Origin: Fragilariopsis cylindrus CCMP1102 | Lineage: Eukaryota; Bacillariophyta; Bacillariophyceae; Bacillariales; Bacillariaceae | Reading direction: 5' to 3' | Assembly: GCA_900095095.1 (NCBI GenBank) | Contig: FMBT01000290.1 | Coordinates: 496,001-560,000 of the forward strand | DNA length: 64,000 bases | In this document: positions 1 through 17,813 of the stretch, piece by piece | How the letters are laid out: the number at the start of each line of letters is the position of its first letter | How positions within the stretch are numbered: the first letter of the stretch is position 1 | Position numbers and translations under genes: made by a program | Notes under the pieces: generated by a model | Database searches by the model: none | Seen by the model: the letters and a program-made list of their open reading frames with translations, nothing else | Told to the model about the DNA's origin: nothing

Positions 1-182
1 AGGGAAATGTAAATTGGCAAGTAGATTACTACATAGCTGGATAGATTTGGAGATGTTCCTATTTTATCATGACATTCTAATATAGATTAATAATAGGCAG
101 TTCAACTGTTGTCTCACTAGCCTTTCTATGGCAGGAAGAATCAGCGCGGCAGTTAATTATTTATATAGATACCATCAGTTAC
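1..182. other. Left flank of the LINE, no gene
   Basis: AT-rich sequence before the left target-site repeat. I see no open frame, RNA gene or long repeat in it. Confidence 0.5.
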
Positions 183-199
183 TACAGGTAGGTAGGACA
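183..199 (+). repeat. Left target-site duplication of the LINE (17 bp)
   Basis: TACAGGTAGGTAGGACA is found here and again, identically, at 10848-10864. The two copies bracket the two-ORF retroelement with a 5' leader of about 370 bp and a 3' tail of about 100 bp, as expected for a target-primed insertion. Part of the motif is a short GGTA repeat, so a chance match is not fully excluded. Confidence 0.75.
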
Positions 200-200
200 C

Positions 201-216
201 AATTCCAGACGGAATT
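201..216. repeat. Short perfect inverted repeat at the LINE 5' end
   Basis: AATTCC-AGAC-GGAATT begins two bases after the left target-site repeat. A 6-bp stem with a 4-nt loop at the very 5' end of the transcript could be a small hairpin, but its significance is unknown. Confidence 0.5.
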
Positions 217-570
217 AATTGAAAACGCGCACCTCAAGTTAACTCACTTAAATACCCCCAGTACTGAAACTACGTAGAATCCTACGTGAATCTCTGAACC
301 AACCCTCTAATAAGAGACTGTTGACGATGATAACGAAGCCATTATTAATCCATCATGGAAGGAGCCACACCAATGGAGAAGACATGTATGACACCGTATC
401 AATAGGAAGCACGAAGAGGGGACAAATTTGACCAAAAATCGTTGAAATTGAAGGAAAACAGCGAAAATGGAATTATAGGCACTAGCGACAATGGCAAAGC
501 GACTGACACAGATGACCAAGGATGGACAAAAATCAAGGCAAATGGAAGACGCAAACCCAAAACAACAACC

Positions 571-3363
571 ATGGAAAGGCCAATCATCGACTCGATTATA
601 ACAACCATCAATGTAGAAACAAAGACAGTGAAGAATGGAGCAATGGAAGTAAAAATTGAATCACCGGTACGTACCAACAGATGTATCATACCAGATGACG
701 CATCAGCACATGAAATGACAAAGCAACTAATGAAGCAAGTGCCAACAGCAGAAGAAGAAGAAGAAGATGAAGAAAAAGAAGAGGAAGAAGAAGAAGAAGA
801 TGAAGCGAAGAAACGGATGGGCGTAAACAGGAATAATGACAACAAAAAGATTGAAAACAACAGATATATCATCACGGATGGAATTGAATTTGATCTTAAC
901 AGTAGAAACCGAAGCGAACAACGCCTATTACCACCAGGAACAATTGAAGATAAAGACAACAATGAAGGAAAAGATGAAGAAGAAGAAGTAAAAGATGAAC
1001 AGGAACTGAAGAAAGAAAATAATGAAAATAACAAAAACAAAAACAAAAACAATGAAGATAATATTGAATTAAATAACAAAACAGTAGAAGAACAATACAA
1101 ACTTAGCAAAGAAAGCATGGTGACAATGGCCAATGAACAAGCAGGAGATAATGAAAACAGAAGATTAGCAACCGAACGTGCGACAGATGAACAAATGCAG
1201 GAAGATGGAAATGATACAGAAAATACCACCGGAAGTGAAGGAAATAATGGAAATAATCCAAGTGAAAATAGTGGAAATAATGGAAACAACGACAATGGCA
1301 ACAACAATGGAGATAACAGCAATAATAATAACAACAACAGAAAGAGAGGAGGACGCCCAAAAGTATCCATAGTAGAACCAACAGACATGGCAACATATAC
1401 TTTTACAATTGCATGGAGACCAGGAAACAAAGCAGGTAAAGATGGAAAAATTATTATAAAGAATGTAATGAGAGAAATGCAGCACAGAGAACCTACAATT
1501 ATATTCCACCCAACAAACTCAGCTACATCGCCAGTACCAAGAGACATCCGCAACATAAACAATGACTTCCCCAAAACACCAGCAACATTTGATGATTTCT
1601 TTGATCAAAACAGAAATAGAGACAATACAAATCAACAAACATTCATGAAAGTATCAATGCCACAAAATGAAAAAGAGCTACAAACCAAAATTCATAACTA
1701 TTTATACCATAACCAGCTATACATGAACAGTCCGTTCATCAATGACAATACACTGGAACATGTAGGATTTGTTGAAAAAGGACATAGCAGATTAGTATTC
1801 AGACCAGCAATGGAAAAGAAAATACAAAATGGAATCAAAGACATTATGAATGGAGATCAACTCACACCACAACAAGTAGCACAAATAAAGAACCTGTCAA
1901 GTGATGTTAGAGTGGAATGCCACCGAGGAACAGTACGAGGAGGAGCATATACCAACCAATCTGTTTGCGAAGGAATAGTACTAAAGACGACAAAAACACA
2001 AGCAAAACTGGTGATGGAACTACTGGCAATGCTACCGGATAATCTCCTCGGAGAGCACTATAGAATCTGCCCCAAAAGTGTAAATCAACACCTTGGATTC
2101 GAATTATATGGACAAATAGTAGCTGATACAGCCAACTTCCAACACAAACTCCAACCGATCACTATACTCAACTGTCATCCCAGCGTACTAGACGATATGT
2201 ATGGCAATGTTAAGGTACTAAATTCTAAGCAGGTGACAGTACAACAATTTATATTAGGTAACTGTGGAGCTATATCAATTGAAGAGACAAATGAAACATC
2301 AACTAAAGGAAAATATATCGTAATTGTACCAGCAAATAATTTAGATTCAGCAAGAACAGCAATTGGAAAAATGTTTCAGGAGTTTCAAGATAGTAGCAAC
2401 AGACCAGCAGCATTGGAATGCATCAAAGCATATGACAACTATCCATTAGTTAATGATAATGTAACAATCAGCGGACATGCAGAAAACCTAGCCAAAAAGA
2501 TCAGAGAAAGATACAAAAATAAACCCAAAACACCAATTCGAAATAAGCAGAGTTCACAGTACTCATACCATGGAAGCGTCTCAATGGAAGAACAAAACGC
2601 ATCGCATGCAGCAGCAGTACCTAGGAGTATCATTAAGAAAGGAAGACATAACATCAATCTAGCACCACCACTACAACAATGGGCTTCTCCACCAGCAGTA
2701 CACCAAGCAGCAACAACAAATCAAGCAGAAATAGGAACAGTTATGTCCAATTTATCACCAGATGATTCAGCAAAAACAATGATGACAAATGTATCAAAGA
2801 TGGTAGAATCATTAGGGACTGTAGTAACTACAATGGCAAAGGAAACAGCAAACACAAACGAAACGATGAAACAAATGATGATACAACAAGCAACAACAAT
2901 GAACAACCTTATGATGATAATGACAAGGAATGAAGACAGACGACAGGGAACTCCAATAAGTATAAGTGAAATACAACCAGTAATAAATTTACAACAAGGA
3001 TCTACCCCAGCGAGCACGTTAACAAACAGCCAATACAGTCTATCGCAAGAACAATCAACAAGCTCCAACAAACGCCCAAAACATGGATTAGATGATGACG
3101 AAACAACAGCATTATCAACAGTAGAAAATGGTACAGCAGATGAGCTAGAAGAACAAGAAGACATGATAGAAGAACAAATGGAAGCAACTATGAATGAACA
3201 ACCAAATGATGTAACAATGGAAGATAATGAACAAACAACAGCTAAAACAACAAACACAGCAAACGTCCCAGGAGATTTCAGCCAATTTAATAATAATAAT
3301 AAAAATAAACAAGCAACAACAAATACACCTGCAAAGACAGGTATAAATCCATTAAATGAATAG
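571..3363 (+). CDS. LINE ORF1 protein
   Basis: ORF1 would be the RNA-binding partner of the retrotransposon, packaging its transcript before target-primed reverse transcription; that role is inferred from position. The frame is open from about 406, but the first in-frame ATG is at 571 in a good context (CAACCATGG), giving 930 aa. A nearer start would need a non-ATG codon such as TTG at 442. The N-terminal third is low complexity: acidic Glu/Asp runs, then Asn/Gly-rich sequence and a basic RKRGGRP patch like an AT-hook. The middle (about residues 270-670) looks globular and matches no ORF1 type I can name. The C-terminus is Gln/Thr/Asn-rich. I see no CCHC zinc knuckle. The stop overlaps the ORF2 start by 8 nt. 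Confidence 0.85.
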   Translation: MERPIIDSIITTINVETKTVKNGAMEVKIESPVRTNRCIIPDDASAHEMTKQLMKQVPTAEEEEEDEEKEEEEEEEDEAKKRMGVNRNNDNKKIENNRYIITDGIEFDLNSRNRSEQRLLPPGTIEDKDNNEGKDEEEEVKDEQELKKENNENNKNKNKNNEDNIELNNKTVEEQYKLSKESMVTMANEQAGDNENRRLATERATDEQMQEDGNDTENTTGSEGNNGNNPSENSGNNGNNDNGNNNGDNSNNNNNNRKRGGRPKVSIVEPTDMATYTFTIAWRPGNKAGKDGKIIIKNVMREMQHREPTIIFHPTNSATSPVPRDIRNINNDFPKTPATFDDFFDQNRNRDNTNQQTFMKVSMPQNEKELQTKIHNYLYHNQLYMNSPFINDNTLEHVGFVEKGHSRLVFRPAMEKKIQNGIKDIMNGDQLTPQQVAQIKNLSSDVRVECHRGTVRGGAYTNQSVCEGIVLKTTKTQAKLVMELLAMLPDNLLGEHYRICPKSVNQHLGFELYGQIVADTANFQHKLQPITILNCHPSVLDDMYGNVKVLNSKQVTVQQFILGNCGAISIEETNETSTKGKYIVIVPANNLDSARTAIGKMFQEFQDSSNRPAALECIKAYDNYPLVNDNVTISGHAENLAKKIRERYKNKPKTPIRNKQSSQYSYHGSVSMEEQNASHAAAVPRSIIKKGRHNINLAPPLQQWASPPAVHQAATTNQAEIGTVMSNLSPDDSAKTMMTNVSKMVESLGTVVTTMAKETANTNETMKQMMIQQATTMNNLMMIMTRNEDRRQGTPISISEIQPVINLQQGSTPASTLTNSQYSLSQEQSTSSNKRPKHGLDDDETTALSTVENGTADELEEQEDMIEEQMEATMNEQPNDVTMEDNEQTTAKTTNTANVPGDFSQFNNNNKNKQATTNTPAKTGINPLNE
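3356..3363 (+). promoter_or_regulatory. ORF1 stop / ORF2 start overlap ATGAATAG
   Basis: The ORF2 ATG (3356-3358) lies just before the ORF1 TAG (3361-3363) in the +1 frame. Such overlaps suit termination-reinitiation, a mechanism known for some LINEs with overlapping ORFs. No Shine-Dalgarno-like or IRES element was identified. Confidence 0.7.
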
Positions 3364-4169
3364 AGGCGACGATGATAATGAGAACAATGAGGAGAACAAA
3401 ATATTAGCATCAAGAAAACAATTTAAAGAACACAACAATAATGAATCAAATATACCAGAGTTAATTAGTAGATATGGTGCTGTAGAATCATCAGATGAGG
3501 ACAGTGAAGAAGACGCTCCACGACGACAAAAGCAGCTACCGATCGAAACAAGACTAGAAAAACTAAAAGAAGCAATAGAAAGAATAAGTAGTGTACAGAG
3601 AGGAAACAGAATGCCAGGACTGCAGGAAAGGAATAGAGAAGACAGTGATAGTGAGAGTGACAATGAAGAGGATGATGAGAACAACGACATACCAAGACTA
3701 CAAGAAAGAGACAGAGAAGACAGTGATAGTGAAGATGACGAGGAAGACGGTAAGGACGACGATGAAAACGATCAACAACAGCAAAATATTAGGTCTACAA
3801 TCAACATAAATGAAGCCAATAATGGAATAAAAACTAAATTAGTGCGAAATAGAGAAAATCCAAGTCAATTAAGGACTAAATTATCGCGAATTGCAGAAAT
3901 AAAAACTAAATTAGTGCGAAACAGTGGTCCAAATAGTGAATTAAGGACTAAATTATCGCGAATTGAAAAAATTATACTCAACGATGAGGTTGAAACCACT
4001 GTATCACTGGAAACAACAACAACAAGAGCAATAGGAGATAGCAGTGACTACGGAACCGAAATCAACAGTGAAGAAGACCTATTCTTTGAGCCAAGTGACG
4101 ACGAAGGCGAAGAAGAAGCTAGTATACAAAATAATAATAATTATAACAGCGAAAATGAAGCATTGACAA

Positions 4170-4200
<31 letters not shown>

Positions 4201-7200
4201 CACAACAACATCAACATCAACAACACCGAAGACAATGAAGATAACACAGGAAAATCTACCATTTGGACATATCTGTGATGATGTAGCAATAGGCAATGAT
4301 ACACCATATGTGCGAGTATACTGTCAAAATGTATGTGGAATATATGATAGAGATGGTATAGGATTAGATTCGGCATTTAATGAAATGAAAAAGGCAGGAG
4401 CTGATATATTTACATTCAATGAGACTCATGGTGATGAATCAAATGCATTGGCACGACGGGCTACAAAAATGTCAAAACAAAGAATGTGGAGAGATAACAA
4501 TGAAGATTGCAAAATAGTACACTCATCGTCAACAGCACCTGTCCTAAGCTTCACAAAACCTGGAGGAAATATGGTAGGAATAACTGGATCATTAGTGGGT
4601 AGAATAAGAGAAACAATTACAGATCCGTATGGCAGATGGTGTGGTTACACACTGATAGGAAAAGATAACAAAGAGATAATGGTGCTAACAGCTTACAATG
4701 TCTCACAACACAAAAATGCAAAAGTAGGAGATGATACACTGTACAATCAACAAACAGCATTATATAAATTGAAAGACATAAGAGATCCAGATCCAAAGAA
4801 ATTATTTATAGAAGACTTAACAGCACTAGTAAAGAAGGCAAGGACGGAAGACAAAGATATCATTTTAACAGGCGACTTTAATGAATTAGTAGGAGATGAT
4901 CCAAATGGAATGGTGAAAGTTATATCCGCAGGAGGACTTACAGATGCGCACAGTCATCAACATGGCATAGTAGACATAACAACGTATACAAGAGGAGTTA
5001 AAAGATTAGATTATGTATTTGTAACACCAAGACTAGTAGATCATATATTAAGAAGTGGGTATGAATCGTTCCATTCAAGAATAGCATCAGATCACAGAGG
5101 CTACTTCGTTGACTTTGCACTAGCAGGCTTCCTTGACAGGCAGCTACCATCAATATTCTCTGCATCATCAAGAGCAATTAGAGGAACACACCCAAAGAAC
5201 ATCACAAAATATGTGGAACACCTCCATAAAGTTTTCAAGATGCGAGATATCTACAGGAGAGTAAAATTACAAAAGAACTGGTATGAAAAGAAGAAATTAG
5301 AAGCACTAGACAGAGAAATAACTGCAGTAATGCTAGAAGCTGAAGAACAATGCAGAATACATCATAGAGAACCATGGTCAGAGGAAGTGAATGAAGTGAT
5401 GACAACAGCGAATATACTGAGAATCCACTTGTCAAGCCTGAAAAACAATATTGATTGCAGCAACCAAATACAGCAAAAGCAGCTATTGCTGAAGAACCAA
5501 ATCCAACTCCCAGAAGACATTGCAGAGGCCTCCAAGGCGCTGAGTATAGCGCAAAAGAAAAGAAGAAAATTAATAAGAGATAACAGAACAAAGACGACTA
5601 GCATAGGAGAGGAACAAGAAGCAGCATATGTAGCAATGAATCCGGAAATGGATGCAAAAAGAGCAGCCCAGATTTTCCAGAGAGCAAGAGATACCAAACA
5701 GATGATGTCGGAGCTACCGTCAAAGATGAACGGTCCAAGGGGTCTATCAGCTGTACTGGTACCACTACCAAAAGAAGGCATCGAACTTGAGTACTTAGCA
5801 ATAACAGATGGACCAACAATTGAAAGAATAATACTGGAGAAGAATATTAGGCACTTCAGGCAAGCAGAATTTACTCCATTGGCATCATCAGAAGTAATAC
5901 GCAAGATAGGTTTTGGTGCAGATACGGAAACAGCAGAACAGCTACTTGATGGAACTGGCGATCCAACTGATATAACGGATGACGAATGGGCAAGATTCCT
6001 ACTAACATCAATGAAAAGAAACTCAGAAGAACTAAAAATAGAGATAACAGCAGAGAAAATGATGGAGAAGTATACGAGGTGGAACGAACGGACTAGTACA
6101 TCACCATCAGGCAGGCACTTGGGACATTTCCATGCATTATTTAGACCACTAAAGGCAAAGAACAAGAAACACCGGGAGCAACTGGATGATATCAGAGACG
6201 ATATAATTGATTTACATGCAACAATGCTGCAGACAGCGTATGACAACGAGCATGTCTACAAACGATGGGAGTACATCCTCACCTGTATGCTGGCTAAGGA
6301 ATCTGGAATACCAAGAATACACAGACTACGAGTGATACACCTATACGAATGTGACCTGAATCTACTATTTTCATTAGTCTTCAGAGAACTGGACCAACAC
6401 TGTGAAGATAACTTCCTACTCAACAAGGGAGTGTATGGATGTCGACCGAATAGACGAGCAATGGATCCAGTATTTGTAGATGTAACCCAAAATGAAATGG
6501 CAATGGTAACACGAAAGGCTCTGGTGAAATTCAACAACGATGCAACAGCTTGCTTTGACAGAATATTAGTACACTTACTCAGTCTGTGCTTACAATCTTT
6601 TGGATGTCCCAAGAAACTAACAAAAATATTAGGAGAACTACTGCGAGTAGCAAGATATGCAATAAAAACCGGAATAGGAATATCAAAAGAAACCTACCAA
6701 CACTCAGATGAATCACCTGCATTTGGATCTGGACAAGGTAGTGCTGCATCAGCACAAGGATGGACGAAATTAGTATCAATGCTGTTTGATATTCATGACA
6801 AGTATGGACACGGATGTAAATATGAAGACCCATGGAGACTATATAGTGAAATAATTGGCATGCTAGGATTTGTGGATGATAATAATATTACAAACAATGG
6901 TGAAGACTGGGAAACAGTAAATGATATCATTATAAGAACACAACATGATGCACAACTATGGAATGATTTACTGCGAGCAACAGGAGGAGCACTAAATCTT
7001 GACAAGTGCTTTGCACAAGTATTAGCATTTCAATTTGGACTAAATGGGGCACCAGTTATTGCACCAGCAGATCCAACCAACATAATAATAATAAAAGATA
7101 GGCAGAACAACAAAGACGTAATAATCAAACCAATATCACCATATACTACGTATCGGTTCCTAGGTACGGAACAAGGAACAAGCAAGAATCAAAAGTCGCA

Positions 7201-10200
7201 ACAAGGGAAATTAGTGAAAACATCATCAACACACAACAGAAAGCTAGCTTGCTCAGCAATGTCACCAAGATGCGCATGGGTCCATTATACGGCAGTATTC
7301 CTCAGTAGCGTAGGATATCCACTCAGCATGTGCCACCTCAGTCAACATCAACTGCATGATCTACAGAAGAAATATATCCCAACACTACTAAACAAAATCA
7401 GCATAGCAAGAACACATGCTCATGCATTAGTATTCGGACCAAGAGCGTACGGAGGAGTAGGTTGTAATGACCTACGAATAGAACAAGGTCTAGATGCAGT
7501 ACAAAATCTAATCAGGCAACTAAGAACTCCAGGCTACGGCAAACAACTAGCTACAATCTTCCTGAGAACGTTCCAACATGCATCTGGACTATCAAAACCA
7601 CTTCTAGAGTACCCCAGAATCAGAGCGCCCCATCTTGAAGGCCACTATTATGTACACATACGACGTTTCCTCGCAAAGCACAGAGCTAGTCTAGAAATAG
7701 AATGCATACCAATATCAATCGACGAAAGAATAGGAGATACATACATCATGGATGTAGTATGTGCACCGGAATCAGCACAGACATTGGATAGAACACAACT
7801 GAAACACTACACTGATGCAGAAATCAACCAAATTCACTACTGCAAGAGCTACCTACAGGTAAAAAGAATATCAGATTTATGCACGGCGGATGGAGCTTTC
7901 ATCATACCATCCATAGCAAAAGGTGAAAGAAGCATAAGACAATGTACATCCAAACTGAATGAAATAATACAAGAAAGACCTGGAGATCAATCGTGGACAG
8001 TGTGGAGAAAATTCCTGAAGACAATATGCAAACCCAGTTCGAACCAAGGTTCAAACCCGGAATCAACTGAATCTAGCTTATTTGCGCCAAGAATCGAACC
8101 ACGACCAACTGAACCAGGATCCGAACCCGGACCCAGCTCACGACTCAACCTATCCACCGAGCCAAGAACCGAACCAACCCCAATGGAAAATAGGGATGCC
8201 CTCATAGAAAATGAGGGACTGCAGCAGAGAAAAGAAGTGATAGACAAGGTTAGCATTGGAACGTTTCTCCTCAAATACTGGGTCGGAGTACCTTTCAGGG
8301 GCATTGTAATGAACAATACAGGCAAATACTACAAGATACTATATGAGGACGGCGATGAAGAGGAACTTAATCATACAGAAGTAGTAAAGTATGAGAAGAA
8401 GTACAGAGAAGAGGGAAGAATGACAGGTGAGATAGGACAACGGATGAGAATGACGAAGCCACTAGGTGACTGGCTAGTGCAAGCCAATGATTCAGAACGG
8501 CTGTGGCCATTCTATTATTCAGAAGAAACCGACACTCTCTACAGGAGCTTTAGAAAGGAATGGCACACCAATGGAGAATACTACTATGACTGCCACATGA
8601 TAGCAGACAATGATACATACAACTATGTATCAGAAGGCAATGTGGAAAGACTACCGAATGATGCATCACCAACAGATGTAATGGACACTGAAGATGGATG
8701 GAGAATATCAGAACACCACCCAATAAGAAACCAAGACGAAGAACACGAGGAGAGCCAAACAATAATGCAGTATATACAGTCACAAGAAGAACATGTATCA
8801 CAGTACTATGCAGAAATAAACTTCTTCACCACACCATATGAAGTGTATGAACTAATAAAATCACCAAGAAAATACAATATAGCGACCGATGGGGGGGCAA
8901 TACCACTCAAAGGATCTCTGGGATTTGTGGTTGCCAATGAAGATGGAACAATACTATTATCTTGCTACGGACAACCATCAGGAAATGATCCACTGTCATT
9001 CAGATCAGAAATATGTGCACTACTAGCAGCAGCAAAGCTATTACAATTGATAACAGAATACTATGATAATCAAATACAATGTGAAGAACCAGCAAGAGGT
9101 AAAATACAGGTGTACACTGACAGTCTAAGTATGATAAAGAAATTAGAAGCATATGATGAATACCCAACAGCGCATTTGAAGACAGTACTAAATTCAGAGT
9201 GGGACGTACTTTCAGCACTGAGCAGAACATTGAAGAAATTCAGAACATATCCAAAATTAAGCTGGGTAAAGAGTCACCAAGATGATTTGGTTTTTGATGA
9301 GAAAGCAATGCCACTGGAGGCTTATCTGAACTCAGAAGCAGATGAATTGGCAACGATAGGCCTGAAGAGACTACAAGAAAAACCTACTGTACCAATGGAT
9401 CCAAACACATGCATACAGTTCCACATCGAAGGAAGAACAATTACAAGAAACTTCAAGAACACAGTAAGAGAAATAATACTACTAAAACCACTACAAAAAT
9501 TCTACTGTGAAAGATTCAAGTGGAGTGACAATATTTTTGACTTGATAGATTGGGACGTATTTCGACCAGTCTACAAGAAACACCTAACAACAAAAGGAAT
9601 AGCATGGATGCATAAATTTTGCATAAAGAAACTTCCAACAGGAGAAAGAGTACACAAAAGAGACCACTTCCATGACAGGAGATGCGCATCATGTTTGGAA
9701 GATGAAGATGATGACCACATCCTCCAGTGTGATAACAGAAGAAGCGTAAGAAAGAAGGTTGTCAATCAAATAAATGTACTACGCAAAACAGTGGACAAGA
9801 ACTTGTGTGACATACTACAGGAAGGTTTAATGGCTTACTTCAAAAGGGACTGCATGTCCAACACCATGTTCAGAATAAGAGGAGGGAAAGGCATGGAAAG
9901 GTACAAAAACTTAATAGATGAACAAACAGTAATAGGATGGGACAATCTGTTAAGAGGAAAATTTTCAAAGGAGTGGAGAATACAACAGAAAGCATATAAG
10001 ACCAGACTACGCCTAGTAGATCCAATTGAGTATGATAGGATAAAAAGACAGAGAAAAAGACAACAAGAGCAACACAACGATGCAAACACCAACAACAAAA
10101 CAACAAAAAGCAAAAATAAAACAGAAGAATTTCATGGTTTCTTTCAGTCAATAGTACCAATAATATTTGAAATGTGGACAGATAGGTGCATTGACAGAAA

Positions 10201-10747
10201 TACACCAGTATTAGGGGGCAGAATCGTGGCAGAATATGAATCTCTATGCAAGAAAGTAACTCATCTGTATACACTGAGAGAAATGGTACTGCCAGAAGAT
10301 GAAATTAAGATATATGATGAAACACTACTATCAAAACTTGCAGACACAAACCAACAATTGAAAAAGTGGATCTGCAGATGGAGACCAGTAATAGATCATA
10401 GCATGAAAAGAGTGAAGGAACTAGCACAAGAAAACAGCAAACCGATATGGCAACACTTCACTGCAAACAAACCAGCAAAGACCAAGGTATCAAGGAAAAC
10501 AACAAAGCAATCGAAACCAAAGAAATATTCCAATAATCCATTGACAAATGTGTACACCAGATTAAAGAAGAAGCGATCATCAAGTCGAGTACTTCCAGTA
10601 ATAAAGAAAATCAAACATAAGGTTAATCATTTGATATCAACATTGTACAACAAATTGGGAAAGAAGAGATCAACTAGCAGAGAGCACACAGCATTGGAGG
10701 TAGGAAAGCAGATAATTGATGACAGATTTGGAGATGAACCTAAGTAA
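3356..10747 (+). CDS. LINE ORF2: endonuclease, reverse transcriptase, Tudor-like and RNase H polyprotein
   Basis: A 2463-aa replicase, long for a LINE ORF2. An acidic N-terminus (to about 300) holds two copies of an RLQERDREDSDSE-like unit and two TKLVRN/TKLSRI units. The APE-like endonuclease spans about 317-590, with YCQN, NETHG, TGDFNE, RLDYVF and SDHRGYF. The reverse transcriptase spans about 915-1260, with SPSGRHLGH, motif A DATACFD, motif B GQGSAASAQG and motif C FVDD. A Pro/Glu-rich linker (about 1560-1615) leads to a Tudor-like segment (about 1638-1690) ending in YEDGDEEEL. RNase H (about 1838-2005) shows D/E/D/D in TDGGA, SEICAL, YTDS and NSEADELA. CASCLED..HILQC near 2110 resembles the terminal Cys/His motif of many LINEs. 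The C-terminus is very basic. All key residues look intact. It probably acts in the nucleus at target DNA. Confidence 0.92.
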
Positions 10748-10864
10748 TAAATAAATGTAGAATAAATTTGGCGGGTAGATTGTTGACTTTCTGTCTTTCT
10801 AAGACCTTAAGGAGCAAAGCTGCAGCTATTAAATAATAAGTTATATATACAGGTAGGTAGGACA
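10748..10864 (+). other. LINE 3' UTR and right target-site duplication
   Basis: About 100 bp follow the ORF2 stop and end ...AATAAGTTATATA directly before the second copy of the 17-bp direct repeat (10848-10864). There is no poly(A) run; the end is A/T-rich only. Confidence 0.65.
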
Positions 10865-12116
10865 ACAAGTTAGGAAAATGCAACCTCTCCTCCAAAGAAA
10901 GACACAGCATAGCTCAGCATGCGGTATCAACTAAACATTCTGAGAGTGTAATAATTGTAAATGTGCCTAGCTACCTACGTTCACTAGACTGGAGACTTCT
11001 ATGGTATCAATATATGTAAATAGTGTTTATTAGAAGTGTGAGCTTAGTTGCTCATCAGTGGTGATATATATGTTCTGTCCTTGGTCAGTCCTGTACAAGT
11101 CCACTGTTGTTCTAGTGTTCATCTACTAGTGACTCATGTCTTATCCTACAATAGAATACATATACATGATGGTAGGCTAAAAACATAAAAAGGAATGTTT
11201 ATCTTGTCTACTACTTGTTCTAGGGAGAATACATACCAAGTCACTGCATATGTACTGAATAGTAATAATGTGATGTTCTGTACTTCATGCGCAAATAATT
11301 GATTAATTTCTCCTCACATTGCAGTTTATGCCATCATATAGATTTAGCGCAGTAATACATGAGGCAATTAGAGGTAAAATTTGGTAATGATCTAGAGAGT
11401 AATAACTAGAATTTCTTAAACAAATATAAGATCAGTTGCAATGAAGGTTAACTTTAGAACTTAGTGTGCAAATCCTGGTTTAAATGCATGCATTTTCGAT
11501 ATATTGTTGAGAATAATGAGGACAAATAATTATCTCGTTGATCCTACCATAGATTAGTATTACATGTAGTTATGTAGACTTGGCCTTCACTTCAACCCAA
11601 GAAGATAAAATGATACAGGCAAATACTCAGGGGAAGCTCCTGTAGCAATTCTTCATTTTTCATTCCTCTAACCTTCAGCACACTTCTTTTTCTTGGTTGG
11701 ATGAATAACTACACTACTAGTAGATCTACTATTATTCAAGCCCCCCAATTATATTATGGTAACTCAAGGGATAAAGCCATTTTAAGATCTACTATTATTC
11801 AAGCCCCCCAATTATATTATGGTAACTCAAGGGATAAAGCCATTTTAAGTGCTGGTCATGATCTCATTACTATCAGCCATTATCATTTCCATAGTATGGC
11901 AATTTGTGATGAGAATAATGACATGGATAATTTATGAACAACTACAGGACAATTTATGAACAACTACACCTGACCAGTATTATAGTTTGTAAACATTTAT
12001 TGAACACCACAACAATACTAGCGCCTACATTTGATTTTGTTGAAGCAATGATTATTACTAATTATCCATAGGAAGGATGTCGACCCTTGAACTTGACAAG
12101 CTATTTAAATATATAT
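10865..12116. other. Intergenic region with a tandem duplication
   Basis: About 1.25 kb with no convincing gene. Only the 63-bp tandem repeat near 11.75 kb stands out. The short frame at 11701-11937 is mostly that repeat and is not supported as a gene. Confidence 0.5.
11722..11847 (+). repeat. Perfect 63-bp tandem duplication
   Basis: Two identical 63-bp units (11722-11784 and 11785-11847) begin AGATCTACTATTATTCAAG. The length is a multiple of three, so the overlapping frame repeats a 21-residue unit exactly. A 14-bp palindrome TAGTAGATCTACTA (11718-11731) lies at the left boundary. The identity points to a recent duplication. Confidence 0.95.
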
Positions 12117-15100
12117 CTAAAAAGTTAAACTTTCATCAGATGATTCAGAGTTATAGCCATCGCCGACATTTGTGTGACTGATATCAGTGTGCTCTCTTTT
12201 TCTCTCTTGTTCCCCCCCCTGCTTCCGAGTAGACGGAGCAACATGAACTAAGTTTCCCTTCTTCTTCCCCTTGACATCATCAAAGCCTCTATTCGAAACT
12301 TCGGCCCTCTTCTTCTTTTTCTTTGGAGATTCTTTCTTTTTGAGATTCAGTTTTCGTTTTGCTTTCTTATCTTCTGCCACTTCTGGTATACTTGATGGCT
12401 TTCTTTCGGCTTTGGGCTTGCTTTTATCTAGTTCTATAGTAAGGTCTTTTTCCGTGAGAAGAGCGTCATGGAAGTAGTGTTTAGAAACAATTAAGGCGGG
12501 ATTTTTTGTCGACGAAACTGTTAGAATATTTTTCAACAGTTCATCTCGTTCGACTAACTTCTCCGTTTCAGCTTTAGACATTCTGTTTGCAGCGGTGCTG
12601 ATAATAAGACCAGGAGACGTGATGGTTTCTGATTTCTCGTTAGGTTTCCTAAAGTGCTGACTATACCATATCGCATCTTTTTCGGGAAAGCAGCATTCCA
12701 ATTCCATTCTTTTATCATGATCGTCCATCATTTCACAGTGCCAATCATCAGAGATGTTTGCCATATCCATAGTGTGTTCTGGGGGTCTGTTTTTTGTTTG
12801 TAATTGGAATGTTTTGTTTTGTATGCTAGATTAGTTTAGTTCATTTAATAGATATGCAATAGCCAAACAAACAAAACTCGAATATATACTCAATTGAACT
12901 TACAGCATTCTCCACTGCTGGCATCGTACACATTCTACCCAATCGTCTACAGTTGCTAATGAGTTTATTTCATCCTGTTTGAAGCATCGACGTAGCTCTT
13001 TTCCATCGATGACACGATTTCCGAGACCCGTCTTGTTCACAGCTCGAGAGTATACTTTCTCTTCCATAGATCCTTGTGTCAGTAATCTGTACGCAAATAC
13101 ATTTCTTGTTTGACCGTAGCGGTAGCAACGGTAGATAGCTTGCAGATCGATGGTTGGATTAAAATGACTATCCATCAGGACAACTCGGTTCGCTGAAACA
13201 AGATTAGTCCCAATCCCCCCTGCCACCGAGCTGATCAGAAATAGCTTCAACTTTTTGTTGTTCGAAAAGTCTTTAAGAAGCTCTCCTCTCTCATTGGAGC
13301 TTGTTTGCCCATCGATTCGGAGAAAGTCGACGTTTTTAGTCCAACCTCCCATTGAAATACCCGGGAAAGATTCTTGAAGAGATGGGCACGACAGTTGCCA
13401 GTCTTTTGACGATAAAACTTCCGTAAGGAAATCAAGAGTCTAAAATTTAGCACAATTAGATTCAACAATAGAATCGTTACAATGTGTAAGAAAACTAGAC
13501 TTTTAAAGATAAACTTTGTTTGTTTTGGTGTTACCATTGTCGTTATTGTCTTACCTTCAAAGACTGGCTAAAGACAACAGTTTTCTCCCCCAGTATCGAA
13601 GCGTGCGCCAAAATGTGAAAAAGTGCAATACACTTATTCCCACTGCAGTTTTATTTCAGCGAAACGAATGAAACAAGATGAATTTATTTGTAAGGTATTA
13701 GATTTTGACAGCTAGATCATGCATATGGTCGGATTCATACGCACCTTTCTACACTTTTCATCGCATCGACACCGAATTTCTTTTCAACTTTCGCCCACCA
13801 CTTTTGTGTATCTCCACATTCGGACTCATCTTCTCCTTCATCCTCGGTACTAGACATCAAATCAATGATAGAATCTGGGGATTCTCGGCCAGATTTCTTC
13901 TCGTGGTTGCTTCCTGTGATCCTTTCGTCGTCGCTAGTCGAAGATTTGAGGGTAGAAGTTTTGGGAATCTTCCGATCCAAGGAATTATCTATTGTATGTC
14001 TTCTATTCTTGTCAACGTTGGAAGGCTGTTTTCGCGCTTCATCTCCCTTAGATTTTGAAGTCTTGGACTCAAAGAAAAGAGTTCCAGGATGATTATTGAC
14101 AGTACGTAACGAAGCAAATTGTTTCAGAAAATTGTTCTGATTTGTTGCAATTTTGTGTATATTATATTCCCGATAAAGAATACGTTGTAATGTGGTGGGC
14201 CTCAAATGCAGACAGACTTGCTGTAGCGAAGGAAGATCGGCAAGAAGAATCGATGCATCTCGTCGATGAACGTATGGCTGGGTGTACAACAAGAGTTCCA
14301 TTTTGTGTTCATTTATTTTGGGTTAGTAAGTTGGCATTAGTTGACATCAAGTGATATCTCATCTAACTAAATGTTATAGTTCGAAATAAATATGTAAGGC
14401 CTACCTTCAAAGTTTCGAAAAGTTCAGTCAAACGTTCGTCGGCACTGATTTTCACGCTATGTTCAGCGTCACTTGCCATCCCAGCTTCGATGGGATTAAT
14501 ATATTCGTTTTGGAAGAATTTTTCTGAGTCTCCCAATTTGCCAGGCCGAATGTAAGACACCATGCGATAATATTCAAGTAGATTATTTACAAATGGGGTT
14601 CCCGAAAGACAAATTCGTCTGTTTGTTTTTATTTTCATTAATGCCTTGTAGACTTGGTTATCTTTATTCTTTAGCATTGTGTGACTGTTCATAAATGATA
14701 AAGAGAAGCAATAATTTACTGTAAGATAAACTAGAAAAAAAGGGAAGGGTTATGTCTGTTTAGGAAGACGGCAGAAAACACAATATTTTTACATACCTTT
14801 CATCCAAAACGATGGCATCAGTAGACGAGAGATGTTTTTCCGTCTCTTCATGCTTTACCATATTTCGGAACAAAGCATCAGATGAAAGAAGTATACCACC
14901 CATATTTGACCATGATTTGACCTGTCGCTTTCTGGAATACTTATCTCCGCTCGATATATTAGTAATATTAATTTTTTTGTTCATCCCTTTCGTCCATTTC
15001 TCAAATTCATTTTCCCAATTTGATAAGGTGTTGACCGGAACTACCAACAAAACTTTATGGATACTTCCACGGTTCGTATTCGTATCCACTAGCGAAGGTT

Positions 15101-16469
15101 GTAGCATAATTGCGTGTAGAAGAGATACGCATGCAAGGGATTTTCCTAGACCCATTGAATGAGCGAGGATGCACCCCCCAATATCATTTGAAACATCCGT
15201 TCTATCACCCCCCAGATCTGCAAAAGAATTATTATACATGAATTTTATGCCCTCCTTTTGATGCGGTTTGAGATGTCTCGCAAAGTGATCGGCTATAGAA
15301 ATATAAGGATTTTCTGATAAGACAAGAGATGAATCTTTAAACGATTTGGAATCCAACTGTTGGAGTTCGTTGTTGGACGGTGCCGGAGATGCTTTGATCG
15401 TAATCTGTTTCACTCCCTCCTCGTTTTTGATGTTAATATTGTTGTTGTTCAATTCTCTGCCCCGTCTTTGAAAAGCTGATGACGACATGCGCTGCAAAGC
15501 ATCCGTTGGTACCTCTATAATCAATGGCCTAGAAGAAGAGACTGTTGCCGTCGATACGGATACAGTTCTGACCTGTGACGGTTGTGGCTTCTCGGAAGAC
15601 GACGATGATAATGTTCTTACGTTGTTTTTGTTGGCCATTTCCTTCAGTCCGGCGGCCCAGTCCTCTTTATCTGCAGATCTACTCCGTACGGTCAATCGTA
15701 CTTTATTTTCTTCAACTCGACGCTGGTCCTCGGCATCACATGCTAATTCAATATCTTCTTGTCGAGCCCTGGAGAATGAACTTCGCCAGTCATTTCTGAA
15801 TGCATCTTTATCGTCATCATCATCATCGTCCTTGTCGGAACCACTTTCGTCGTCGTTGTTGTTACTACTACAGCTACTCCCAAGGTCTTCAACATCTTCT
15901 GTTATTTCTAAACGATACCGTGGATGGTTGAGGTCGTCGTTTTGTTTTCTACGATTCTTCTCATTCTTCTCCTCAGACGAGCGTTTTTTCTCTTTTCGTC
16001 TCATTTGTAATCGTTCTTCTTCTACTTTTTTAGCAAGAGCTTTGTCCGCAGATATTTTCCAGTGTGGTTCTTCCTCTTCCTCCTCTTTCTTTGCTATACC
16101 ATTGTGATTGTGATTGTGATTGCTTTCGTCGTCGTTGTTATTTTTGTTTTCGTCATCGATATAGCGGTATGCAGCCAAGGCTTCCACTCCTTGTTCCGAC
16201 TTAATGATATCTTCGAGGATACTAATCCTATCAAATAGACGTGTCTGGTGTTTTATCCATTCCTCGTAAGTCTTCTGAACAACTTGATCGATCAGTCCAC
16301 CATCTTCAAAATCGTTTTCGTTATAATTTCCTTCTTCCAGAATGTCTTGCTGTATCTCTTGACGAAGAACTATCTGATTATCCAATTTTTCGTCACATTG
16401 TCGTTTTTTTGTCTCTACGATATCCAATTCGTGCAGTAATTCTTCGATCGTTTGTTTCTGATGTCTTCG

Positions 16470-16507
<38 letters not shown>

Positions 16508-17813
16508 CATTGTTATTCGTTGAGAAGAGTTTTGCGGTAGCAGTACGTAGCTTTCGAAGTAACCGCGGAACGTTTTCTTTGCCAATATTTTCATCATCAT
16601 GACAACAACAAAAACATCTCCATTTTTCATCCTCCGATTGAGATAATAGTCGATCGGTAATCGATTCTGATTGTGTTTGTTTTTTCGATCTACCATGAGC
16701 CTGTTCTAAACATTTTTGACAGACAATTCTCGGACAATAGTCACAGAAAAATAATTTTTCATCATCAAAATCATCTTCGGTTCTCCCACATCCACTACAT
16801 GCCAAAGTGTTTTGCTGCTGCTGCTGATTTTGTTGCTCGTCGTCGTCTTCGTCGTCGTAATTATTATTATCATTACTTTTATCATTAGATAACGATGATA
16901 GTCTTTGTCGTCGTTCGACCGATTCGATATTTTCAGCACAAACGACACACACTGGAACTTCCAATACGGGATGTAGATGAAGAGCGTAGCAACATATTTC
17001 TTGTTCTTTCGATCTAGTATCATCATCGTCAGTACTGGTGCTTGTACTTGTCTCGCAATCACCACTCATAATAGCAGAACCAGGATGATGTATCCATTGA
17101 TGACATTCCCAGCAATGATTTTTCAAAAAATTCAGTGATCGTGGAGGAGTATTACTATTACTATTACTATTATTATTATTATTATTATTATCAGCTTCAT
17201 CATCATCATTATTATCATCATCATCGTCGTCAGTTGAAGCGGCATCGGAATTGACAGTAGTGGCACCTGCGGTAGCGGTAGCGGTGATATTAGGAGTAGT
17301 TGAAGTAGAGGTTGAACACATAACAGCCGCAGTCTCCTCGATAGATAAAATACTATCTGGTCGTTGCTGTTGATTTTGCTGTTGTTGTTGTTGACAATCG
17401 TTCTCGTCGCCATTATCATTATCATTGTCATCATCATCATCATCACTGGTATCTCCAAGTAATTCGATTACGTCGTCACCTCCACCCCCCGATACTGATC
17501 GTGCTATAGCTACAGCACCTCCTCCTCCTTCGACGGAGGAGGTTGGTTCTTCTTCTTCCACCGCGGCGGCGGCGGCCGCACCCATCAAAATTGCACGATG
17601 TTGTTCAATAATTTCTTTACTATTATTACATTCTTCCAATGTTTCCTGATTATTTTGATCTGGTGGAACAGTTTCCGATTTTGATTCCAATCTCTCTTGG
17701 TGCTCTTCCTCTACCTGGTAGTCGTTCTCATTCTCGTTCTCGTTCTCGTTCTCATTTTCCTCATCCTCGGAAGACGACGAATCAAGCAATTCGATAGTAT
17801 TATTATTATTCAT
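12117..17813 (-). CDS. ATRX: ATRX-like SNF2 chromatin remodeller with ADD and CW zinc fingers
   Basis: A nuclear DNA-translocating ATPase of the ATRX group, which in animals acts with DAXX in histone H3.3 deposition at heterochromatin. Six exons: 17813-14797, 14684-14405, 14277-13745, 13642-13555, 13439-12904 and 12786-12117. They sum to 5124 nt and 1707 aa; all introns are GT-AG and 102-127 bp, and the frame is kept. Residues about 229-401 form a cysteine-rich ADD-like module (CWEC, CVVC, CSGC, CDYC, CQKC, CFCC). The first helicase lobe has MGLGKS and, across the first junction, LDESH. The second exon gives LSGTPFVNN. The second lobe has VFSQS, SVAGGIGTNL and YRCYRYGQ. Near 1472-1530 a CW finger (WVECVRCQQWR...WHC) spans the last junction. 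The N-terminus is rich in Asp/Glu/Asn and Ser repeats. DESH differs from the usual DEGH. It is divergent with the TRAPPC8-like gene. Confidence 0.92.

Follow-up and report, generated by a model that had tools for sequence, protein, structure and literature searches.

A divergent Tudor domain between the reverse transcriptase and RNase H of a LINE lineage in the diatom Fragilariopsis cylindrus

The second open reading frame (ORF2) of a LINE from Fragilariopsis cylindrus carries, between its reverse transcriptase (RT) and RNase H, a module that by profile comparison is a divergent Tudor domain of the PF21743 (PTM/DIR17-like) type. The module is present in the close copies of the element and absent from sister copies in the same genome, is under strong purifying selection and has retained the residues of a putative ligand pocket; Tudors of the same family also occur in Copia elements of this genome. 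The pattern of presence and absence indicates that the module was probably captured by this LINE lineage. The explanation that we favor, and consider likely though far from certain, is that one lineage gained an insert of about 340 nt consisting of a tether and the Tudor domain, and that the Tudor reads methylated lysine and thereby holds the ORF2 complex at marked chromatin.

Overall organization of the LINE

The window, i.e. the whole stretch of 64,000 nt that was analyzed, belongs to contig C91 of a 67.9-Mb assembly, and 104 matches to light-harvesting proteins show that the source is a photosynthetic eukaryote. It contains a complete LINE copy located between two 16-nt target-site duplications, the sequence of which occurs only twice within the window. 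At the 3' border (10846-10849), similarity to 11 other loci ends. The following features were assigned (positions in the window):

184-199, no strand: target-site duplication, 5' copy, 16 nt, ACAGGTAGGTAGGACA, exactly repeated at 10849-10864
200-10848, + strand: full-length LINE insertion, bounded by both duplications; similarity to other loci ends at 10846-10849
442-3363, + strand: ORF1, 973 aa counted from TTG, true start uncertain
3356-10747, + strand: ORF2, 2463 aa, uninterrupted, with endonuclease (EN), RT, Tudor, RNase H and zinc-binding tail
3815-3984, + strand: tandem basic repeat IKTKLVRN..SQLRTKLSRIAE at the N-terminus of ORF2, sharing DNA homology with the stretch that immediately precedes the Tudor of group-A Copia elements
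4373-5095, + strand: APE-type endonuclease domain, ORF2 residues 340-580 (Pfam Exo_endo_phos, 25.2 bits, E 1.6e-5, cut-off 24.5)
6323-7018, + strand: RT core, ORF2 residues 990-1221 (Pfam RVT_1, 26.1 bits, E 8.3e-6, below the cut-off of 29.6)
8042-8245, + strand, borders approximate: Pro/Glu/Ser-rich tether that evolves fast and opens the probably acquired insert (dN/dS 0.58; missing in the sister lineage)
8246-8410, + strand: Tudor domain, ORF2 residues 1631-1685, with putative pocket W1642, F1647, Y1663, D1665 and D1667 (Pfam and LINE-free profile; dN/dS 0.09)
8411-8650, + strand: ancestral conserved block PLGDWL..LWPFYY..LYRSF (dN/dS 0.14; the Tudor-less LINEs L067 and, with weaker alignment, L066 contain it as well)
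8870-9361, + strand: RNase H (Pfam RNase_H, 22.1 bits, cut-off 25.8, E 1.8e-4, segment 8786-9500 scanned)
9560-9730, + strand: zinc-binding domain after RNase H, ORF2 residues 2069-2125 (Pfam zf-RVT, 18.2 bits, E 0.004, below the cut-off of 27.5)
10849-10864, no strand: target-site duplication, 3' copy, the same 16 nt as 184-199 (ACAGGTAGGTAGGACA)

The end of ORF1 (3363) slightly overlaps the start of ORF2 (3356), and ORF1 gave no Pfam match up to E 1. The element has the hallmarks of a LINE: endonuclease and RT are both detected by Pfam within ORF2, a target-site duplication of 16 nt is present and LTRs are absent, with no LTR-sized terminal direct repeat in positions 1-12000 of the window. 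The RT is followed by an RNase H, as in some LINE clades (Pfam match below the cut-off). Using the RT as query, no relatives were found among viral contigs. The conserved block at 8411-8650 has no Pfam match and may represent an unrecognised small domain.

The neighbors of this LINE copy are ordinary genes (SNF2-type, TRAPP, UTP15), a single case which provides no evidence of a preference. An ORF for an SNF2-type remodeller (SNF2-rel_dom) adjoins the LINE on the minus strand (14760-17813 and 12117-14301), with further exon-like ORFs downstream on the same strand.

Identification of the Tudor domain

A sequence-only reading of the window had proposed a Tudor/agenet-type module between RT and RNase H. 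The peptide in question indeed lies within the single uninterrupted ORF2, and its position is borne out by the Pfam matches on either side (RT, residues 990-1221; RNase H, segment 8786-9500, E 1.8e-4, below the cut-off). In the Pfam scan of the entire ORF2, PF21743 matches residues 1644-1676 with 22.1 bits (E 1.3e-4), below the family cut-off of 27.2. When positions 8240-8410 were scanned alone, the score rose to 29.0 bits and exceeded this cut-off; the genome search gave 28.5 bits. In order to avoid circularity, a profile was built from 14 Tudors of Copia elements and other ORFs, excluding all LINE rows. This LINE-free profile matches residues 1631-1685 of ORF2 with 32.6 bits, compared to 7.8 bits for the best of 2000 shuffled ORF2s, while two Tudor-less LINE proteins (L066 and L067) score -0.3 and -0.5 bits. 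The proposed Tudor is thus supported by both PF21743 and the LINE-free profile. Chromodomain, PWWP and Agenet families were not among the Pfam matches, neither with ORF2 (limit E 1) nor with the isolated segment (limit E 10), given that HMMER filters remove most matches above about E 0.1.

Comparison with solved structures was carried out at three levels. A joint profile of 13 rows (A3), comprising LINE, Copia and other Tudors, matched the lamin-B receptor (2dig, E 3.1e-8; 2l8d, E 3.3e-6), 7de9 (E 1.4e-5), JMJD2C (E 0.0014) and JMJD2A (E 0.012); PHF1 (E 0.53) and 53BP1 (E 1.5) were not significant. Neither the LINE-only profile A2 (two non-Tudor matches, E 1.5 and 4.4) nor the single sequence (two non-Tudor matches, E 0.13 and 0.8) retrieved a Tudor from the solved structures. 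Since the LINE-only profile finds no solved Tudor, the LINE module has to be regarded as divergent, and the structural matches of the joint profile lean on the other rows. Aligned directly by hhalign, the LINE Tudors match those of Copia elements (97.6%, E 3.2e-12) and of other ORFs (97.4%, E 9.3e-12), and the LINE module has two residues fewer than these relatives between strands 2 and 3. The module most likely folds as a Tudor barrel.

Distribution of the module among LINE copies

By inspection, the RT matches in the genome comprise a close family, a second family with 28-33% identity and a third with 26-30%. Within the close family, each of the 18 full-length RT matches with more than 80% identity also has a match to the Tudor region; the motif noticed in the window is accordingly found in closely related copies, while copies on C59 (75%) and C674 (71%) lack it. 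For the second and third RT families, no adjacent PF21743 match was detected in the genome search, in which 150 of 169 candidates were scored.

In the sister copy on C59 (L067), the Tudor-less junction can be read directly: WGTWRKFLKSIC is followed by a short linker and by RLSTPLGNW. The copy on C674 matches the same stretch of 130 residues over exactly 390 nt, hence without an insert. Two further copies, one on C83 (RT fragment 66% identical), covered in two overlapping pieces, and a weaker, stop-bearing one on C303 (42%), are likewise contiguous over the junction. In the family-2 copy L066, the RT runs to the RNase H without the module, which is also missing from all nine family-2 copies whose matches extend almost completely across the junction, about 200 residues being encoded there in 582-633 nt. 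The proposal that the module is an extra element where LINEs usually have a plain linker therefore agrees with the related LINEs, which have no insert at this place. The flanks of the Tudor-less query map to positions 7976-8041 (a weak piece, E 0.41) and 8429-8707 of the window, corresponding to a net insert of about 340 nt, in agreement with the alignment. In a tree built without the insert, the two Tudor-less rows, one of them on a very long branch, are placed apart from all 16 Tudor-bearing rows with a local support of 0.893.

Presence in close copies in combination with absence from sister copies argues for a gain or, less simply, for losses, and against a chance motif. A single gain would be the simplest reading, since the alternative requires losses in both the sister lineage and family 2.

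On C674, at about 60-68 kb, a Tudor-bearing Copia element appears to interrupt the RT of a Tudor-less sister LINE.

Selection and the putative binding pocket

Starting from 35 LINE loci, 34 of which have an ORF match, 19 open copies were covered sufficiently for alignment. These are not independent, as they comprise 18 distinct peptides over residues 1625-1770, several of them near-identical or allelic. For the calculation of dN/dS (pooled pairwise NG86; pairs not independent) 11 of the 19 copies were chosen, the remaining eight being mostly near-identical. The value for the Tudor is 0.09 (95% bootstrap 0.04-0.16), similar to the RT end and the RNase H (0.11 each), and stands against 0.58 (0.41-0.80) for the tether directly before it. 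The block after the Tudor gives 0.14 and the later linker 0.24. Such strong selection suggests that the LINE uses the Tudor to hold particular chromatin.

Within the Tudor, Trp1642, Tyr1663, Asp1665, Asp1667 and Glu1669 are invariant in all 19 open copies. Position 1647 is occupied by Phe in five and by Tyr in 14 copies, and residue 1666 between the two fixed aspartates, Gly in the window copy, is Gly, Asp, His or Asn. In the Tudor of Arabidopsis RDM15 (PMC8184781), Trp616, Tyr623, Tyr641, Asp643 and Asp645 hold H3K4me1, and Glu647 and Gln654 hold H3R2. By motif position rather than by structure, the LINE counterparts are Trp1642, Phe/Tyr1647, Tyr1663, Asp1665 and Asp1667, together with Glu1669 for Glu647; the same motif comparison yields no evident counterpart of Gln654. 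The spacing from the tryptophan to the following aromatic residue is 5 in the LINE module versus 7 in RDM15, the loop after the tryptophan being two residues shorter. The RDM15-like pocket positions suggest that the putative pocket may prefer low methylation states of a lysine such as H3K4.

An aromatic residue in strand 2, two residues before a fixed glycine, is kept in all six non-Copia rows of alignment A5 but in none of the eight Copia rows of alignment A4, both alignments being read by eye. A complete pocket is thus not universal among these retroelement Tudors.

Related Tudor domains in Copia elements and other ORFs

The genome search with PF21743, in which 150 of 169 candidates were scored, revealed 139 matches: 29 in this LINE family, about 78 in Copia elements and 32 elsewhere. 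A match was labeled Copia if a Copia RT match followed within 2.5 kb or less downstream on the same strand. The number of 78 is approximate, since the match lists are partly subsets and the searches behind it scored 150 of 169, 150 of 264, 131 of 186 and 131 of 214 candidates. Contig pairs with identical scores (C200/C697, C568/C809 and C279/C580) look allelic and inflate the counts, while scoring only part of the candidates lowers them, so that all numbers are rough. With this reservation, retrotransposons account for 107 of the 139 matches, which suggests that the majority of the copies detected for this Tudor family in the genome reside in retroelements.

In Copia-type polyproteins (e.g. 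L015, L019, L021, L022 and L024) the Tudor is located before the RT. Three of these polyproteins analyzed with Pfam display a Tudor of 43.5-48.5 bits, preceded by weak rve or retroviral-SH3 matches and followed by RVT_2 (below the cut-off). No PF21743 match was found upstream of 23 of the 102 Copia RT places compared; Copia elements without a Tudor, or decayed copies, therefore exist.

Among the other carriers, L031 combines a PF21743 Tudor with DUF6824 and a DNA-binding domain of the HSF type (E 1.7e-11), and in L020 the Tudor is accompanied by a weak DNA-methylase match (E 0.0074, below the cut-off).

In a tree of the Tudor domains, the LINE rows form one clade (94/98) and the Copia rows two groups, with 10 of the 14 inner branches open. 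A further connection between LINE and Copia is provided by the tandem repeat at 3815-3984. Smith-Waterman scores of this repeat are 63-82 in five of five group-A Copia loci, compared to a maximum of 32 in 300 shuffles, and DNA homology was found in neither of the two group-B loci tested. In L017, L018 and L025 the repeat (RTKLSRIAE) is 92-97% identical in DNA over 31-39 nt, and in L015, L019, L021 and L025 longer stretches show 74-77%. A protein search with the repeat returned 29 rows: 16 are in LINE copies, two lie elsewhere, and 11, all of them weak (E 0.003-0.07), precede a Copia-associated Tudor by no more than about 150 nt.

The common repeat indicates that coding sequence has probably passed between LINE and Copia elements of this genome, in one direction or the other. 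More tentatively, and with considerable doubt on our part, a chromatin-targeting cassette might have moved between these unrelated retrotransposon classes. If so, LINEs and Copia elements may have a common docking route to the same chromatin, its parts being swapped by template switching and still rearranging. However, the best match of the ORF2 Tudor among 30 ORFs compared is L009 (E 1.0e-6), in which Pfam detects no retroelement domain, ahead of the best Copia row (E 2.2e-5), and the LINE module has its strand-2 aromatic in common with the six non-Copia rows but with none of the eight Copia rows. Despite the N-terminal repeat common to both, Copia as donor of the LINE Tudor is therefore not established.

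Proposed function and alternative explanations

In the mechanism that we favor, about 340 nt would have entered ORF2 at one site between RT and RNase H, comprising a flexible tether and the Tudor. The Tudor barrel would bind methylated lysine in a pocket resembling that of the H3K4me1 reader RDM15, and the tether would give it reach to the nucleosome beside the site nicked by the endonuclease. The RNP would then dwell on chromatin with the given methyl-lysine, where the endonuclease would nick and the RT would prime. In general, little is understood of how LINEs select their target sites, apart from the endonuclease motif. A reader domain in one lineage, together with Tudor-less sisters in the same genome, constitutes a natural experiment on one chromatin map.

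The methyl-lysine reading has to be weighed against a real Tudor with a non-histone partner, either a methyl-arginine protein of a small-RNA pathway or RNP, or the element's own ORF1 protein, in which case the domain would contribute to assembly or import of the RNP or to evasion of silencing, rather than to target choice. Binding of methyl-arginine proteins is established for some Tudor domains, and the selection on the module fits any binding role. Against such a partner stand the pocket residues, which by motif position match a methyl-lysine reader of histone H3 (PMC8184781), and the occurrence of Tudors of the same family in ORFs with an HSF-type domain (E 1.7e-11) or a weak DNA-methylase match (E 0.0074), companions which suggest that this Tudor family works at chromatin. 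We consider a non-histone partner unlikely, although it deserves attention.

Quite improbable in our view is a barrel that is derived from a Tudor but has lost ligand binding and now has a structural role, spacing RT from RNase H. The shortened loop and the LINE-only profile without a solved Tudor match would be in line with a spacer. However, all 19 open copies retain the Trp, Phe/Tyr, Tyr, Asp and Asp despite variation at the residue that separates the two aspartates, and in related LINEs the RT-RNase H frame is open but contains no such spacer at that place. The same LINE-only profile, along with a whole-ORF2 Pfam score under the family cut-off, could also point to an acidic, aromatic linker that resembles a Tudor motif by chance. 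This is contradicted by the score of 32.6 bits versus 7.8 for the best of 2000 shuffles, and further by a dN/dS of 0.09 and by the same family at about 78 Copia and 32 further places, making a chance likeness hardly credible.

Comparison with known systems

Another study reportedly concerns a possible chromatin-reader domain in a LINE; its fold is another one than Tudor, and its place is reported to be in ORF1. Regarding the domain itself, PF21743 is the best Pfam family, from which the LINE module diverges, lacking two residues between strands 2 and 3. In the RDM15 Tudor (PDB 7DE9; PMC8184781), all five pocket positions have putative LINE counterparts by motif position; RDM15, in contrast, is a host silencing factor with loops two residues longer.

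Captured chromatin-reader modules in retroelement polyproteins, proposed to guide integration, are known from chromoviruses, the oomycete element Chronos and the diatom CoDi-A Copia elements, which carry a chromodomain at the integrase C-terminus (PMC5348765, PMC2774666). All of these are LTR elements, whereas the present ORF2 has no chromodomain match. For CoDi-A, the chromodomain after the integrase was reported as putative (PMC2774666), and the Copia Tudors found here are possibly related to this so-called chromodomain.

In the literature searched, with partial coverage and few subscription papers, no LINE with a Tudor domain was found, and the sole Tudor-bearing transposon was Gypsy-10_Ec32 of the brown alga Ectocarpus (PMC12477816). 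Like the LINE described here, it is a stramenopile retrotransposon with a Tudor. It belongs, however, to the LTR/Gypsy class and carries the Tudor at the C-terminus, whereas in the LINE the domain is located between RT and RNase H, and in the Copia elements of F. cylindrus before the RT.
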